DNA from: Zoogloea oleivorans
GTDB lineage: Bacteria; Pseudomonadota; Gammaproteobacteria; Burkholderiales; Rhodocyclaceae
Direction: 5' to 3'
Length of the DNA stretch: 64,000 nucleotides
Assembly (NCBI RefSeq): GCF_008107625.1
Contig: NZ_SDKK01000001.1
Span: forward strand, 1,686 to 65,685
Position numbers and translations under genes: made by a program. Shown piece after piece: positions 13 to 56,147 of the stretch; the first letter of the stretch is position 1, and every line of letters starts with the position of its first letter. The notes beneath the pieces were generated by a model that saw only the letters and a program-made list of their open reading frames with translations, had not been told where the DNA came from and did no database searches.

Positions 13-117
13 GTCGGACTGAAGTCCGACCCACAAAACCCACCCCGTCCCCGTGGGTCGGACTTCAGTCCGACTCCCCCCGCCGAACCTGCGCTGTCGG
101 ACTGAAGTCCGACCCAC
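13..117. repeat. Three REP palindromes in alternating orientation
   Basis: Three 22-nt copies lie at 13-34 (minus orientation), 53-74 (plus) and 96-117 (minus). Each has a GTGG foot followed by the hairpin GTCGGAC-TTCA-GTCCGAC. They sit just beyond the secF terminator. The sequence is the same family found around the RAYT gene at 3.8 kb. The GTGG tetranucleotide next to an imperfect hairpin is the signature described for RAYT-associated REPs. Confidence 0.9.
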
Positions 118-3604: not shown

Positions 3605-3743
3605 GTGGGTCGGACTGAAGTGTGACGCAGAGGTTCCGCGCGGGTTGTCGGACTAAAGTCCGACCCACAACATCCCCCGTGGGCCAGCCTTCAGCCCGAC
3701 AAAATGCCCAAAACACCCCCTGTGGGTCGGACTTCAGCCCGAC
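3605..3743. repeat. Four degenerate REP copies upstream of the RAYT gene
   Basis: Copies at 3605-3626, 3647-3668, 3679-3700 and 3722-3743 all differ from the consensus at one or more bases (for example TTCAGCCCGAC and ACTAAAGTCC). They fill the divergent gap between yajC and the RAYT gene. This is the most diverged REP group in the window, which suggests it is old. Confidence 0.85.
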
Positions 3744-3790
3744 AACTCGCGCTAAAATAATGCCAATCCAATTTCCCGCTCCCCCTCCCC

Positions 3791-4279
3791 ATGCCCTACA
3801 ACGACCTCCGCAAAGGCCGTGTATCGATTCCGGGCCAGATCTACTTTCTCACCGCCGTAACCTGGGGCCGCACCCCCTGGTTTGAGGATTTTCAGCTTGG
3901 GCGGCAGGTCGCCGGGGTGTTCCACACGCTCGCCCTCGCGCACCCCGGCCTGTCCCTGGCGTGGGTCGTCATGCCGGATCATGTGCATTGGCTGGTCCAG
4001 TTGCCGGAAGGCTTGTCGCTTGATCAGTTGATGCAGCGCTTCAAGGGCCGCAGCGCCCGGGCACTCAATGCCGCCCGCGCAAGCCGTGGCCCCGTCTGGC
4101 AGCCCGGTTTCCATGATCGCGCCTTGCGCAAGGATGAAGACCTCCTCAGCGCTGCCCGCTACCTCATCGCCAACCCCCTGCGCGCCGGCTTGGTGCCGCG
4201 CATCGCCGATCATCCCCTCTGGGACGCCATCTGGATCCAGCCCCCTGTGGATCGGACTTCAGTCCGACGCGGAGGCTGA
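3791..4279 (+). CDS. REP-associated tyrosine transposase (RAYT, IS200/IS605 Y1-like)
   Basis: Encodes 162 aa. The protein has the HUH motif 'MPDHVHWLV' (His64, His66), the N-terminal 'YFLTAVTWGR' strand, and the C-terminal 'AARYLIANPLRAGLV' helix with Tyr124 as the likely nucleophile. These are the Y1 transposase/RAYT hallmarks. Known RAYTs bind and cleave REP hairpins next to a 5' GTAG/GTGG foot; the REPs on both sides here carry GTGG. There are no IS ends or passenger genes, so it looks like a domesticated single-copy enzyme. Residues 153-159 are encoded by the downstream REP at 4247-4268. No Shine-Dalgarno sequence is visible (CCCCCTCCCC precedes the ATG), suggesting weak translation. Function in REP spread is inferred. 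Confidence 0.9.
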   Translation: MPYNDLRKGRVSIPGQIYFLTAVTWGRTPWFEDFQLGRQVAGVFHTLALAHPGLSLAWVVMPDHVHWLVQLPEGLSLDQLMQRFKGRSARALNAARASRGPVWQPGFHDRALRKDEDLLSAARYLIANPLRAGLVPRIADHPLWDAIWIQPPVDRTSVRRGG

Positions 4280-4310
4280 ACGCGCGCTGTCGGACTGAAG
4301 TCCGACCCAC
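4247..4310. repeat. Inverted REP pair overlapping and following the RAYT 3' end
   Basis: Plus copy at 4247-4268 (GTGGATCGG variant) lies inside the RAYT coding sequence; minus copy at 4289-4310 lies just after the stop codon. Feet point outward with a 20-bp spacer, like the pairs at 1175 and 5027. Confidence 0.9.
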
Positions 4311-4439: not shown

Positions 4440-4766
4440 TCAGGCCGCTTTGCTCATCTGGTTGCAAAAACGCTGCCAATTGGCGGCCATTGCGGTAAAC
4501 ATTTGCTCGGCGGCCAGCAGGGGCAGGAGGCCCATGCGGTGCTGGCTGCGCATGAAACCTTCGACGTGCGGCGCACAGAGGGTGCTTTGCTCTTCCTTCA
4601 GCAGTTCGAGAAAGCGGGCTTCGGCGACGCCCCAGTATTCGGATGTGCCCACCCAGCCGGTGTCGGCGGTGGCTTCACGGAGGGCCTTGCGCCAGAGGGC
4701 TTCGGCGCGTTCTACGGAGACGCCCGCCTTGCGGGCGTACCACGGTAATAGTTTCGGTGCTTTCAT
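4440..4766 (-). CDS. Conserved hypothetical protein, 108 aa
   Basis: The start at 4766 is supported by AGGAG eight bases upstream; the protein begins 'MKAPKLLPWYARKAG'. It is soluble, Trp/Ala-rich and probably helical, with no signal peptide or recognisable domain. It has its own terminator and a long AT-rich upstream region, so it is likely a monocistronic, regulated gene. Size, helicity and an upstream TTGTTGCATTGCACAATG element are loosely reminiscent of phasin-type polyhydroxyalkanoate genes, but I do not recognise the family and would not assign it. Confidence 0.8.
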   Translation of the reverse strand: MKAPKLLPWYARKAGVSVERAEALWRKALREATADTGWVGTSEYWGVAEARFLELLKEEQSTLCAPHVEGFMRSQHRMGLLPLLAAEQMFTAMAANWQRFCNQMSKAA

Positions 4767-5156
4767 CGCTGTTACTCCTGTATTTGGGGCATCAAACAAA
4801 CGGGGCTGCTTGTCGCGACTGCTCGTACGGCAGTCTTGTGGTGCGCTGCAATATCAATAATTTCAGCGTTTTACCTTTATTAACAAAGATCCGGCAGCCC
4901 TCTGGGTGTTTGTTTGTTGCATTGCACAATGTCAGTTTAGGTACTTGCTTCGGTGACTGCAAGCGCCATTTCGTTTTGTTTCAAGTATTCCGTCACGGAC
5001 TGTCGGGGCTTTGCAACACCCCTTTCGTGGGTCGGACTTCAGTCCGACAGCGCACTTTCAGACCGTGTTGTCGGACTGAAGTCCGACCCACGGGAACGGG
5101 GAGATTCCTGCCCCGGGCGGTAGAATGGCGCGCTTCGCCGCACACCGTACCGATCC
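4767..5156. other. Intergenic region with possible regulatory element and REP pair
   Basis: This 390-bp gap separates the divergent hypothetical gene and uvrD. Its left part is AT-rich relative to the neighbourhood and should hold the promoter of the minus-strand gene; TTGTTGCATTGCACAATG at 4914-4931 stands out as a partly symmetric element. The right part holds the REP pair at 5027-5091. A TAGAAT box at 5121-5126 is a plausible -10 for uvrD, without a clear -35. No convincing gene was found here. Confidence 0.5.
5027..5091. repeat. Inverted REP pair upstream of uvrD
   Basis: Perfect plus copy 5027-5048 and minus copy 5070-5091, 21-bp spacer, GTGG feet outward. It ends about 65 bp before the uvrD start. 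Confidence 0.92.
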
Positions 5157-7388
5157 ATGTCCCAGCTTCTCGACAACCTCAATCCTGAACAGCTTGCCGC
5201 GGTAACGCTGCCGCCTCAGCACGCCCTGATTCTCGCCGGCGCCGGCTCCGGGAAGACCCGGGTGTTGACCACGCGGATTGCCTGGCTGATCCAGAGCGGC
5301 TTTTGCAGCCCCCAGGGCATCCTCGCGGTGACCTTTACCAACAAGGCCGCCAAAGAGATGGTGACGCGCCTGTCGGCGATGTTTCCGATCAACACGCGGG
5401 GCATGTGGATTGGTACTTTCCACGGACTGTGCAACCGCTTCCTGCGCGCCCATCACCGGGATGCCGGGTTGCCCCAGCTGTTCCAGATTCTGGATTCGGG
5501 CGATCAGCTTGCGTCGATCAAGCGTTTGTTGAAGACGCTCAATGTGGATGATGAAAAATTTCCGCCACGTGAGTTGCAGCACTTCATCAACGGCAAGAAG
5601 GAGGCGGGCTTGAGGCCTGCTGCCGTCGAGGCCTGGGATGATTTCACGAAGCGCCGGGTCGAGCTTTACGCAGAGTATGAAGCACAGTGCCAGCGTGAGG
5701 CAGTTGTGGATTTCCCTGAATTGCTGCTGCGCAGCTATGAATTGCTTCAGCGCAACGAGCCGATTCGCCGGCATTACCAGGCCCGTTTCCGCCATATCCT
5801 GGTGGATGAGTTCCAGGATACGAACGTGCTCCAGTACCGCTGGCTGAGCTTGCTGGCCGACGGCGGGCATGAAGGTGGGGCGAGCCTGTTCTGCGTGGGC
5901 GACGACGACCAGTCGATCTACGGCTTCCGGGGCGCCGAGATCGGCAACATGCGTGACTTCGAGCGTGAGTACAAGGTGAGCAGCGTGATCCGCCTGGAGC
6001 AGAATTACCGCTCCCACGGCAACATCCTGGATGCGGCCAACGCGCTGATCGCCAACAACAGCAAGCGTCTCGGCAAAAGTTTATGGACCGACCGCGGCGC
6101 CGGTGAGCCAATCCGCGTCTACGAGGCTTTCACCGACACCGACGAGGCGCGCTGGATCGTCGAGGAGATCCAGTCGCTGGTGCGGGAGGGGACGAGCCGG
6201 GCGAACATCGCGCTGCTCTACCGCTCCAACGCCCAGTCGCGCGTGCTGGAGCATCAGCTGTTTTCCAGCGGGGTGGCCTATCGGGTGTATGGCGGGCTGC
6301 GCTTCTTCGAGCGTCAGGAAGTGAAGCACGCGCTGGCTTACCTGCGCCTGATCAACAATCCGGACGACGACACGGCCTTCAACCGGGTGGTGAACTTCCC
6401 GACCCGCGGCATCGGCGCCCGTTCAATTGAAGCCCTGGTGGACGCGTCGCGGGTTTTCAATACGCCGCTGTACCAGACGGTGCCGCACCTGTCGGGCAAG
6501 CCGGGCACGGCGCTGGCCCAGTTCGTGATGCTGATCGAGCGCCTGCGCAAGGAGACGGCGAGTCTGCCGCTCTACGAGGTGGTGGCGCATGTGATCGAGG
6601 TATCGGGTCTGCGTGCGCATTATCAGGCCGAGAAGGAAGGCCAGGAGCGTCTGGAGAACCTGGACGAACTGATCAACGCGGCGGTTAACTTCAGTACCGA
6701 AGCGGGCGCCGGCCAGTTACCGGACGAGCCGGTGGTCGAGATGAACTCGGTGCTGGCCGAGTTTCTGGCCCATGCGTCGCTGGAGGCGGGCGACCATCAG
6801 GCCGACCCGGGCATGGAGGCGGTGCAGTTGATGACCGTCCATGCGGCCAAGGGGCTGGAGTTCGACGTGGTATTTCTGTCGGGGCTGGAGGAGGGGCTGT
6901 TCCCCCATGAGAACAGCGCCCAGGCCGAGGACGGGCTGGAGGAGGAGCGGCGCCTGATGTACGTGGCGGTCACGCGCGCGCGTCATCGCCTGTATTTGTC
7001 CTTCACGCAGAGCCGCATGCTTCACGGCCAGGTTCGCTACAACCTGCGCTCGCGCTTCCTGGAGGAAATCCCCGAGGGGCTGACGAAGTGGCTGACGCCG
7101 CCGTCACCCCGGCGCAGCTTCGTGTCGGAACCGTCGGCCCGTTACTTCAGCCCGAACTCGTCGAAGCAGGCCATGCCGAGCATGCCGCCCCCTCCGCTGC
7201 TGCGCTCGCGGGATCTGGGCGGCTTGTCGATTGGCCAGAACGTGACCCACGCACGCTTCGGTGACGGCGTCATCGTCGCCGCCGAAGGCAGCGGCAACGA
7301 TGCCCGCGTCCAGGTGAAGTTCGGCGCCGATGCCGGCACCAAGTGGCTGATGCTGGCCGTCGCAAAACTCACCCCAGTGAGCGGATGA
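5157..7388 (+). CDS. uvrD: UvrD, DNA helicase II
   Basis: Encodes 743 aa, a superfamily 1A 3'-5' helicase acting in nucleotide excision repair and mismatch repair. Visible motifs: Walker A AGAGSGKT (residues 27-34), motif Ia 'AVTFTNKAAKEM', Walker B 'ILVDEFQDTN', motif III 'VGDDDQSIYGFRGAE', motif IV 'LEQNYRS', motif V 'MTVHAAKGLEFDVVFL' and motif VI 'EERRLMYVAVTRAR'. The C-terminal 'VTHARFGDGVIV...WLMLAVAKL' Tudor-like tail distinguishes UvrD/PcrA from Rep. ATG at 5157; a TAGAAT -10-like box lies 30 bp upstream. A REP array begins 8 bp after the stop codon. Confidence 0.96.
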   Translation: MSQLLDNLNPEQLAAVTLPPQHALILAGAGSGKTRVLTTRIAWLIQSGFCSPQGILAVTFTNKAAKEMVTRLSAMFPINTRGMWIGTFHGLCNRFLRAHHRDAGLPQLFQILDSGDQLASIKRLLKTLNVDDEKFPPRELQHFINGKKEAGLRPAAVEAWDDFTKRRVELYAEYEAQCQREAVVDFPELLLRSYELLQRNEPIRRHYQARFRHILVDEFQDTNVLQYRWLSLLADGGHEGGASLFCVGDDDQSIYGFRGAEIGNMRDFEREYKVSSVIRLEQNYRSHGNILDAANALIANNSKRLGKSLWTDRGAGEPIRVYEAFTDTDEARWIVEEIQSLVREGTSRANIALLYRSNAQSRVLEHQLFSSGVAYRVYGGLRFFERQEVKHALAYLRLINNPDDDTAFNRVVNFPTRGIGARSIEALVDASRVFNTPLYQTVPHLSGKPGTALAQFVMLIERLRKETASLPLYEVVAHVIEVSGLRAHYQAEKEGQERLENLDELINAAVNFSTEAGAGQLPDEPVVEMNSVLAEFLAHASLEAGDHQADPGMEAVQLMTVHAAKGLEFDVVFLSGLEEGLFPHENSAQAEDGLEEERRLMYVAVTRARHRLYLSFTQSRMLHGQVRYNLRSRFLEEIPEGLTKWLTPPSPRRSFVSEPSARYFSPNSSKQAMPSMPPPPLLRSRDLGGLSIGQNVTHARFGDGVIVAAEGSGNDARVQVKFGADAGTKWLMLAVAKLTPVSG

Positions 7389-7395
7389 TCCTCCT

Positions 7396-7984
7396 GTGGG
7401 TCGGACTTCAGTCCGACAACACGGGTTAAGTATGCGCAGCACGGGCTGAGCGTGCGCAGTCGGACTGAAGTCCGACCCACGGGGGAAGGGCGCTATTCCC
7501 CGTGTCGCGCCGGAAATGGCTGGCCCAGCGCTTGCCGCAGGCTGATCCAGGAGTGCTGACTTTGTGGGTCGGACTTCAGTCCGACAACACGGGTTAAGTA
7601 TGCGCAGCACGGGCCAGGCGTGCGCAGTCGGACTGAAGTCCGACCCACGGGGGAAGGGCGCTATTCCCCGTGTCGCGCCGGAAATGGCTGGCCCAGCGCT
7701 TGCCGCAGGCTGATCCAGGAGTGCTGACTTTGTGGGTCGGACTTCAGTCCGACAACACGGGTTAAGTATGCGCAACACGGGCCGGGCGTGTGCAGTCGGA
7801 CTGAAGTCCGACCCACGGGGGAAGGGCGCTATTCCCCGTGTCGCGCCGGAAATGGCTGGCCCAGCGCTTGCCGCAGGCTGATCCAGGAGTGCTGACTTTG
7901 TGGGTCGGACTTCAGTCCGACAACACGGGTTAAGTATGCGCAACACGGGCTGAGCGTGCGCAGTCGGACTGAAGTCCGACCCAC
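7396..7984. repeat. 168-bp tandem array of REP pairs (3.5 copies)
   Basis: Eight REPs form four inverted pairs starting at 7396, 7564, 7732 and 7900, exactly 168 bp apart. Each unit is a plus REP, a 41-bp spacer, a minus REP and an 83-bp linker; the fourth unit stops after its REP pair. The linker copies are almost identical, with only a few substitutions in the pair-internal spacer, pointing to recent tandem amplification. The array fills the 603-bp convergent gap between uvrD and the ParA gene. Because 168 is a multiple of three, an open frame of 56-residue repeats exists on the minus strand; it looks fortuitous. Confidence 0.95.
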
Positions 7985-11410: not shown

Positions 11411-11472
11411 GTCGGACTGAAGTCCGACCCACAGGGAGAGTCTGCATTCTGTGGGTCGGACTTCAGTCCGAC
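11411..11472. repeat. REP pair between maeB and qor, feet inward
   Basis: Minus copy 11411-11432 and plus copy 11451-11472, 18-bp spacer. Here the GTGG feet face each other, the opposite arrangement to most pairs in the window. Confidence 0.92.
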
Positions 11473-20651: not shown

Positions 20652-20709
20652 GGCCGGACTGAAGTCCGACCCATAGAGATGGGTTTTGTGGGTCGGACTT
20701 CAGTCCGAC
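20652..20709. repeat. REP pair after the WbuC cupin gene
   Basis: A degenerate minus copy (about 20652-20673, ending CCCAT) and a perfect plus copy (20688-20709) face each other with 14 bp between, in the convergent gap between the cupin gene and the GGDEF-EAL gene. Confidence 0.85.
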
Positions 20710-32170: not shown

Positions 32171-32192
32171 GTAGGTCGGACTTCAGTCCGAC
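32171..32192 (+). repeat. Solitary REP with GTAG foot
   Basis: A single plus-oriented copy with GTAG in place of GTGG, immediately after the terminator T-run. It is the last REP in the window; none was found from here to 64,000. Confidence 0.88.
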
Positions 32193-55199: not shown

Positions 55200-55201
55200 C
55201 G

Positions 55202-56143
55202 ATGATGGATAGCAGGGAAGAAAGTTGGGCGCGCGCGGTGCTGGAGAAGCTGGCGCTGGAAACCCTTGCGGAGCAGAAGCGGCGTCGCCGCTGGGGGGTA
55301 TTTTTCAAGCTGGTGTCGCTGACCTTTTTGGGGGTGATTTTCTGGTCGTTTGGTGATTTCGGCAGTGCCGAGCCTCTTGATGGCGGCAAGCACACTGCGC
55401 TGGTGAGTCTTGAAGGTGTGATCGCGCCGAAGGGTGAAGTTAGCGCCGAGCATGTCGTGGGGGCCTTGCAGGCCGCCTTCGATGACGCCGGCACCCAGGG
55501 CGTGGTGTTGCGCATCAATAGTCCGGGCGGGAGTCCGGTGCAGGCGGGGATCATCAACGACGAAATCGTGCGCCTGCGCAAGTTGCATCCGAATGTGCCG
55601 CTGTTCGCCGTGGTTGAGGATGTGTGTGCGTCCGGCGGTTATTACGTGGCTGCGGCGGCCGATCGCATTTTTGTGGACAAGGCCAGCATCGTCGGCTCGA
55701 TTGGCGTGCTGATGGATGGCTTCGGCTTTACCGGCGTGATGGACAAGGTGGGGGTTGAGCGTCGCCTGCTGACGGCAGGAGAGAACAAGGGCTTTCTGGA
55801 TCCTTTTTCTCCGCAGCAGCCAAAGCACCTGGAGCATGCGAAAGTGATGCTCCAGGATATTCACACCCAGTTCATCGATACCGTGCGCAAGGGGCGTGGT
55901 TCGCGCCTGAAGGAAACCCCGGACATGTTCTCCGGCCTCATGTGGACCGGCGCGAAGAGCGTCGAGCTTGGTCTGGCGGATGGCTTCGGGACGGTGGAGT
56001 CGGTGGCGCGGGATGTGATCAAGGCGGAAAGCATCCGTGACTTCACTCAGAAGCAGAATTTTGCCGAGCGTTTCGCCGCGCGTTTTGGTGCCGACATGGC
56101 TCAGAGTCTGATGAATACCTTGTCGCGCACCAGCATGCGCTGA
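55202..56143 (+). CDS. sppA: SppA-like S49 signal-peptide peptidase
   Basis: Encodes 313 aa from the ATG at 55202; a GTG two codons earlier is possible and overlaps the Rieske stop. A membrane anchor ('GVFFKLVSLTFLGVIFWSF', about 33-52) precedes the S49 domain: 'VVLRINSPGGSPVQAG', catalytic Ser in 'ASGGYYVAAAADRIFVDKASIVGSIGVL', and the Lys in 'GENKGFLDPFSP'. This is the short (half-length) SppA/SohB type, acting as an oligomer on the periplasmic side. Ends 4 bp before the convergent methyltransferase gene. Confidence 0.93.
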   Translation: MMDSREESWARAVLEKLALETLAEQKRRRRWGVFFKLVSLTFLGVIFWSFGDFGSAEPLDGGKHTALVSLEGVIAPKGEVSAEHVVGALQAAFDDAGTQGVVLRINSPGGSPVQAGIINDEIVRLRKLHPNVPLFAVVEDVCASGGYYVAAAADRIFVDKASIVGSIGVLMDGFGFTGVMDKVGVERRLLTAGENKGFLDPFSPQQPKHLEHAKVMLQDIHTQFIDTVRKGRGSRLKETPDMFSGLMWTGAKSVELGLADGFGTVESVARDVIKAESIRDFTQKQNFAERFAARFGADMAQSLMNTLSRTSMR

Positions 56144-56147
56144 GTCT

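Follow-up and report, generated by a model that had tools for sequence, protein, structure and literature searches.

A 64-kb stretch of DNA from the genus Zoogloea, to which we refer as a whole as the window, carries one gene for a REP-associated tyrosine transposase (RAYT) with copies of a short palindromic repeat (REP) on both of its sides. The window is part of the 371,856-bp contig C14 of the draft genome G000 (5.68 Mb, 107 contigs). We consider it very probable that gene and repeats together form a REPtron, in which one domesticated, group-3-like RAYT recognises, nicks and spreads its REPs as inverted pairs (REPINs). In such a system the Y1/HUH enzyme would recognise the single-stranded REP by its GTGG foot, 7-bp stem and 4-nt loop and would nick it through Tyr124, and this nicking would allow REPINs to spread to intergenic sites across the genome. 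Single-strand cleavage with strand transfer by this protein, and likewise a RAYT-driven copying of REPINs in the living cell, would be expected from what other RAYTs do, and the presence of a REPIN at 5027 that is absent in the sister species G013 suggests that the REPIN may move as a unit. We are dealing with a genuine group-3-like REPtron with REPINs that is probably active. The features of the window are as follows:

13 to 117: three perfect REPs downstream of secF, at 13-34 (-), 53-74 (+) and 96-117 (-)
1175 to 1239: perfect REPIN in the secF-secD gap, common to the sister species G013
3605 to 3668: upstream REPIN, with a REP at 3605-3626 (+), 4 mismatches, and an inverted REP at 3647-3668 (-), 1 mismatch
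3679 to 3700 (+): single degenerate REP, 4 mismatches
3722 to 3743 (+): single REP, 1 mismatch, with the RAYT start 47 bp further on
3791 to 4279 (+): RAYT / TnpAREP gene, 162 aa, HVH at residues 64-66, catalytic Tyr124
4238 to 4279 (+): last 13 codons of the gene, QPPVDRTSVRRGG, and the stop, running into the downstream REPIN
4247 to 4310: downstream REPIN, overlapping the RAYT 3' end, with a REP at 4247-4268 (+), 1 mismatch, and a perfect inverted REP at 4289-4310 (-)
5027 to 5091: perfect REPIN, site empty in G013
7396 to 7984: four REPINs in tandem, with 8 perfect REPs and a period of 168 bp; one degenerate REP there in G013
11411 to 11472: perfect REP pair, tail to tail; at the same place in G013 a decayed pair, 3 and 4 mismatches
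20653 to 20709: REP pair, tail to tail, 2 and 0 mismatches, absent in G013
32171 to 32192 (+): single REP with a GTAG foot, 1 mismatch

The RAYT Gene and Its Protein

The identity of the 162-aa protein has been established by profile searches, in which NF047646 (REP_Tyr_transpos), a curated NCBIfam model of the RAYT family, gives 146.9 bits at a cut-off of 80 and Pfam Y1_Tnp gives 40.1 bits at a cut-off of 23. The motifs H64-V-H66 and Tyr124, the latter inside RYLIANP, have been located, so that the assignment as a Y1/HUH RAYT in the first-pass annotation, made from the letters of the sequence, holds. Among solved structures, 4er8 of E. coli TnpAREP is the closest, at E 2.1e-9, and its HUH motif and Tyr align with those of the window protein. 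The gene was also proposed to be single-copy, and in the draft genome PF01797 indeed has one match at E<=1 and NF047646 one match at E<=1e-3; no second RAYT, be it with a better matched foot or otherwise, has been found there. One may ask whether the locus is instead an ordinary IS200/IS605-type insertion sequence with REP-like terminal hairpins, as the protein belongs to the same Y1 fold family, matches Pfam Y1_Tnp and gives a sub-threshold match of 31.6 bits to the IS200 model (cut-off 55). We give this idea hardly any credence, since NF047646 lies well above its own cut-off and a single gene copy is opposed to 444 hairpins on many contigs. Consistent with the earlier observation that IS ends are lacking, no ends of its own that bound the gene and move with it as a unit have been found.

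The 3' end of the gene differs between the species. The RAYT of G013 ends with ...DAIWI-TAG, and at the position of that stop the window has CAG, by which the frame is extended by 13 codons; while the copies G013a and G003a terminate at WI and WL, respectively, the window gene thus adds 13 residues that are encoded by a REP. This read-through tail could impair the protein. Between G000 and the G013 orthologue we have obtained a dN of 0.125 and a dS of 0.714 for the RAYT (dN/dS about 0.18), and for neighbouring genes of the same pair a dN of 0.051 and a dS of 0.306 (secD) and a dN of 0.08 and a dS of 0.627 (uvrD). As judged from these substitution rates, the window RAYT is under purifying selection.

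The change from TAG to CAG with its 13 added residues, together with the four upstream REPs that carry 1-4 mismatches, would also agree with an enzyme that has spread REPs in the past and is now retired or repurposed, the REP-encoded tail marking the loss of the transposition function. This we regard as improbable. The catalytic residues are intact, 19 REPs of the window are perfect and some of the sites are empty in the sister species, and the dN/dS of 0.18, although averaged over all the time since the split from G013, is close to the 0.13-0.17 of the neighbours. Moreover, such a tail need not be fatal, as the E. coli enzyme is described to be more active when 13 C-terminal residues are removed (Corneloup, 2021; PMC8266576, available part).

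REPs and REPINs in the Window and the Genome

Searching the window for GTGGGTCGGACTTCAGTCCGAC at <=5 mismatches has yielded 26 REPs, all located before 32.2 kb, and 0 in the reversed window, which confirms the number given earlier for the first 32 kb. The great part of them are perfect (19), and the others carry one (four REPs), two (one REP) or four mismatches (two REPs). REPs stand on both sides of the RAYT with their GTGG feet, four upstream and two downstream, as has been proposed. By our own count, 18 of the 26 are organised as pairs of a REP and an inverted REP (REPINs, 64-85 bp), four make up two tail-to-tail pairs, and the last four are single or unpaired. A single REP, when folded, consists of an unpaired GTGG foot, a perfect 7-bp stem (GTCGGAC/GTCCGAC) and a 4-nt loop, and the folding of two REPINs has resulted in strong hairpins with z values of -10.0 and -7.2. 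The tandem REPIN array also encodes a 280-aa open frame with repeats (7104-7946, minus strand), which is probably an annotation trap and not a gene.

In the whole draft genome, 444 REPs have been counted at <=3 mismatches, with copies on many contigs; the backwards pattern, as a control, gives 0. The window holds 24 of the 444, compared with about 5 expected for 64 kb. It had been suggested that the window contains the only enzyme and all its visible substrates; the first half of this statement is valid for the entire draft, the second only inside the window. Around the RAYT the REPs are clustered, with 7 of the 13 perfect-REP sites of contig C14 (sites merged by hand from the REP listing) lying within 20.7 kb, for which the binomial p of 2e-6 is descriptive only, as the window was chosen for its REP density.

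Around the RAYT, G013 is collinear with the window, with the gene at the same place and in the same orientation. An inverted RAYT in G013 has been considered and rejected, as the locus L033 is given in an orientation independent of the gene, and as L054 and the window are collinear. The REP-bearing stretches on both sides of the RAYT are missing from the alignment blocks of G000 and G013, and only a looser gapped alignment crosses them, from which we conclude that the gene has changed more slowly than these stretches. As had been noticed, the upstream REPs of the window are indeed locally more degenerate, with 4, 1, 4 and 1 mismatches compared with 1 and 0 in the downstream ones. This difference had been taken as a possible record of the direction of spread, an interpretation that we abandon, because the REPs beside the RAYT of G013 are near-perfect on both sides (upstream 0, 0 and 1 mismatches, downstream 1 and 0) and because the window REPs still further upstream (13-117 and 1175-1239) are perfect.

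RAYT Lineages and REP Classes Across Zoogloea

Within the genus Zoogloea, the window REP follows its RAYT lineage. More than 8 copies occur in only 3 of 23 genomes, namely in G000 (444), G003 (197) and G013 (28). The RAYTs of G013 and G003 are 79% and 66% identical to that of the window, and the three have been found to form one clade (ultrafast bootstrap 86, SH-aLRT 82) in a tree of which many forks are open. In the other 20 genomes, where no RAYT of this lineage has been found, the window REP is present in 8, 4, 3, 3, 2 and 1 copies and fourteen times in none; relatives that share every REP position and lack the gene, which would have spoken against this enzyme, have not been encountered. 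The earlier proposal that the RAYT and its cognate REPs with matched feet constitute a REPtron is supported.

The feet vary within this lineage, and other RAYT lineages have REPs with other stems. The REPs flanking the G003 RAYT have GTAG feet, and a genome-wide count in G003 of exact patterns in which C or T precedes the foot gives 170 GTAG and 0 GTGG. A class B REP, GTAG-GGGCGACTTCAGTCGCCC, flanks the RAYTs G013b, G013c and G018, and a class C REP, GTGG-GGGCGAATTCATTCGCCC, flanks the RAYT of G021, a genome with 799 copies at <=2 mismatches. G022 and G008 (C159) have RAYT fragments, which were left out of the tree; these come closest to the class B lineage, with 74% identity to G013b, compared with 58% and 61% to the window RAYT. 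A longer imperfect palindrome flanks the group-2-like RAYTs of G003, G013, G015, G012 and G008, and in the tree, built without published group labels, 4 group-2-like Zoogloea rows are set apart with 100/100 support from 91 rows, among which are the RAYTs of the window and of Pseudomonas. In this group-2-like family (L134, L135, L136, L137, L141 and L146), the longer imperfect REP stops a few bases 5' of the start codon, and one copy, L146 of G015, contains a TAG inside the gene.

Abundant REPs are not always accompanied by a detectable RAYT. The family model NF047646 matches a RAYT in 12 of the 23 Zoogloea genomes at E<=1e-3, and in 9 of the 23 above its cut-off. No RAYT has been found at E<=1e-3 in the REP-rich genomes G016 (240 class C copies), G010 (129 class B) and G011 (78 class B), and G015 has 147 class B copies, yet group-2-like RAYTs only. 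Beyond Zoogloea, 12 related REPs (<=3 mismatches) are present in G026 and 14 in G028, neither of which has yielded a RAYT at E<=1e-10. As the five genomes in which no RAYT has been found are all drafts of 160-730 contigs, loss of the gene and a gap in the assembly look alike in them.

Shared Intergenic Slots

Different species have REPs in the same intergenic slots. We have tabulated 29 slots in the window, seven of them with REPs (the edge slot 1-191 was left out). In G021, which has class C and class B REPs, 4 of the 7 window REP slots are occupied versus 1 of 18 REP-free slots (Fisher p 0.012, a single post-hoc comparison with REPs at <=4 mismatches and 25 of the 29 slots comparable). For G018 the numbers are 3 of 5 REP slots, in one of which the occupant is a degenerate class A REP, versus 0 of 3 REP-free slots, and the window REP slots are occupied in 4 of 7 cases in G013 and in 2 of 6 in G003. 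The REP-poor genomes G006 and G012 have REPs in none of the comparable slots, and a single decayed REP is present in G020. Between yajC and a 119-aa frame (4440-4799), the slot contains the RAYT in 2 of 13 comparable genomes (G000 and G013) and REPs without a RAYT in 4 of 13, being of class B in G018, of class A with a GTAG foot plus a class B remnant in G003, of class C in G021 and a class C remnant in G016; in 7 of 13, REPs have not been found there. Since the insertion points of the REPINs and the spacers in this slot differ, as seen by eye, repeated insertion into permissive slots is favoured over an in-place conversion between REP classes. As a separate observation, a 948-bp gap without a conserved gene at 55200-56147 of the window measures 15-26 bp in G003, G006 and G012, which may reflect either an insertion in the window or a loss in the relatives.

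The sharing of slots by different REP classes in different species (G021, p 0.012), and the existence of REP-rich genomes in which no RAYT has been detected, could be read as signs that REPs are kept by selection for a host role, as terminators, mRNA ends or nucleoid binding sites, and that the RAYT is incidental. We judge this quite unlikely, as the window REP tracks its RAYT lineage in the genus and the REP-poor G006 and G012 have no REPs in any comparable slot.

The Foot and Its Preceding Base

The guide model discussed by Corneloup (2021; PMC8266576, available part) predicts that the base preceding the foot tracks the third base of the foot. In a first sample of 17-103 copies per genome, C precedes the GTGG feet in 33% (G000) and 24% (G016) and T precedes the GTAG feet in 98% (G003) and 97% (G018). 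We have then counted both bases with exact patterns of the three perfect-palindrome REP classes in 23 genomes, which cover a part of the copies only. The C:T ratios are 83:253 for GTGG and 0:11 for GTAG in G000, 8:162 for GTAG in G003, 0:3 and 8:163 for GTGG and GTAG in G018, and 2:30 and 5:56 in G013. The predicted direction is seen in G015 (GTGG 7:4, GTAG 28:74), and the wrong one in G021 (157:323 and 63:47), G016 (24:50 and 14:16) and G022 (3:30 and 30:90). A pairing of C with GTGG and of T with GTAG has been rejected as a rule, the whole-genome counts being opposite to it in the last three genomes. Repeated hairpins have been found at 33 of 80 named RAYT loci, and at one of them (L080, Pseudomonas) AC precedes both GTAG and GTGG.

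Possible Mobility of the RAYT Cassette

A tentative idea, possible but in our opinion doubtful, is that a cassette of REPIN, RAYT and REPIN relocates between REPIN-occupied slots, landing on the REPINs there, either through transposition or through recombination between REPINs. Such cassettes lie in different slots of the sec neighbourhood, and the varied content of the slot next to yajC, with a RAYT in 2 of 13 comparable genomes, would agree with this idea. G013 has two RAYTs of the class B lineage with 90.9% identical proteins on separate short contigs of 3.9 and 3.0 kb, and these are sisters relative to G018 (100/92). Their DNA is 86% identical over about 630 bp, from one flanking REPIN through the RAYT to the other; on one side the alignment continues for about 20 bp, and then it ends. 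One of the two adjoins secF, as in G018, and the sequence that flanks the second on the right lies a few kb away on the same G018 contig, with REPINs before it; ahead of that flank in G018, a RAYT is absent from the 181 bases reaching the contig end. The far left end around the second copy repeats about 220 bp from beside the first. The arrangement is complicated, and as G013 is a metagenome-assembled draft, cassette mobility is to be taken as a lead only.

Furthermore, the G003 orthologue of the window RAYT lies within a REPIN array, between blocks that flank the secF-to-uvrD segment in G016 and G014. In G003, the secF-secD-yajC-uvrD segment and parA-maeB are on separate contigs, C107 and C118 (L165, L180), and in G014 (L174) secF-secD-yajC is inverted relative to uvrD, unlike in the other genomes examined. 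Downstream of secF in the window's own genome, no RAYT remnant has been detected in the 1,685 bases before the window and its first 8,300 (best stray match E 0.012). Among the 80 named RAYT loci and within the available flanks, SecD with YajC has been found in L054 (Zoogloea) only and sec genes in 0 of the 78 loci besides L054 and L055, while ParA occurs in these two Zoogloea loci only. According to the available part of Corneloup (2021; PMC8266576), there is no evidence for tnpAREP mobility, a statement that the cassette reading, if true, would contradict.

Comparison With Known REPtrons

The Zoogloea RAYT and its REPs are a new example of an already known system. An earlier report of a Zoogloea REPtron has not been found in a weak literature search, and the following likenesses and differences refer to the available parts of the cited papers. 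Group 3 REPtrons of Stenotrophomonas maltophilia (Sm) and Marinomonas (Mb) likewise have short, perfectly palindromic REPs behind a GTAG-type tetranucleotide and beside the RAYT gene, and their catalytic Tyr is at a similar place, 125 in Mb and 130 in Sm compared with 124 in the window RAYT (Corneloup, 2021; PMC8266576). Unlike these, the window system has a GTGG instead of a GTAG foot, a TTCA loop and, in the window strain, a REP-encoded C-terminus that is absent in its two nearest relatives. E. coli TnpAREP (PDB 4er8), to which the window RAYT aligns in its HUH motif and Tyr, is a member of group 2, with bulged REPs and a C-terminal extension of about 20 residues (Corneloup, 2021; PMC8266576).

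The REPINs of Pseudomonas fluorescens SBW25 also consist of inverted REP pairs, with tandem arrays and clusters beside each RAYT (Bertels and Rainey, 2011; PMC3116915), although the REP sequence in Zoogloea is different and the host is not a Pseudomonas. The GTAG super-family, including Thauera GTAG-1, is likewise palindromic with a GTAG-type end, comprises some GTGG families and has some copies that read into genes (PMC3733652); Zoogloea is not mentioned in the available main text of that paper. In Pseudomonas and Stenotrophomonas, too, orthologous and syntenic RAYTs of related strains have REPs of varied classes next to them, the foot being GTAG or GTGG (Nunvar, 2013; PMC3686654). Different from that case, two RAYT lineages with different REPs share a locus in Zoogloea, in adjacent slots, and in one draft genome a lineage is present twice. 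Zoogloea offers a good natural series for the joint divergence of RAYT and REP, with proteins that are 79% and 66% identical to the window RAYT, 28 and 197 REPs versus 444, and GTGG or GTAG feet; the genus also contains further RAYT lineages, each with REPs of another class.
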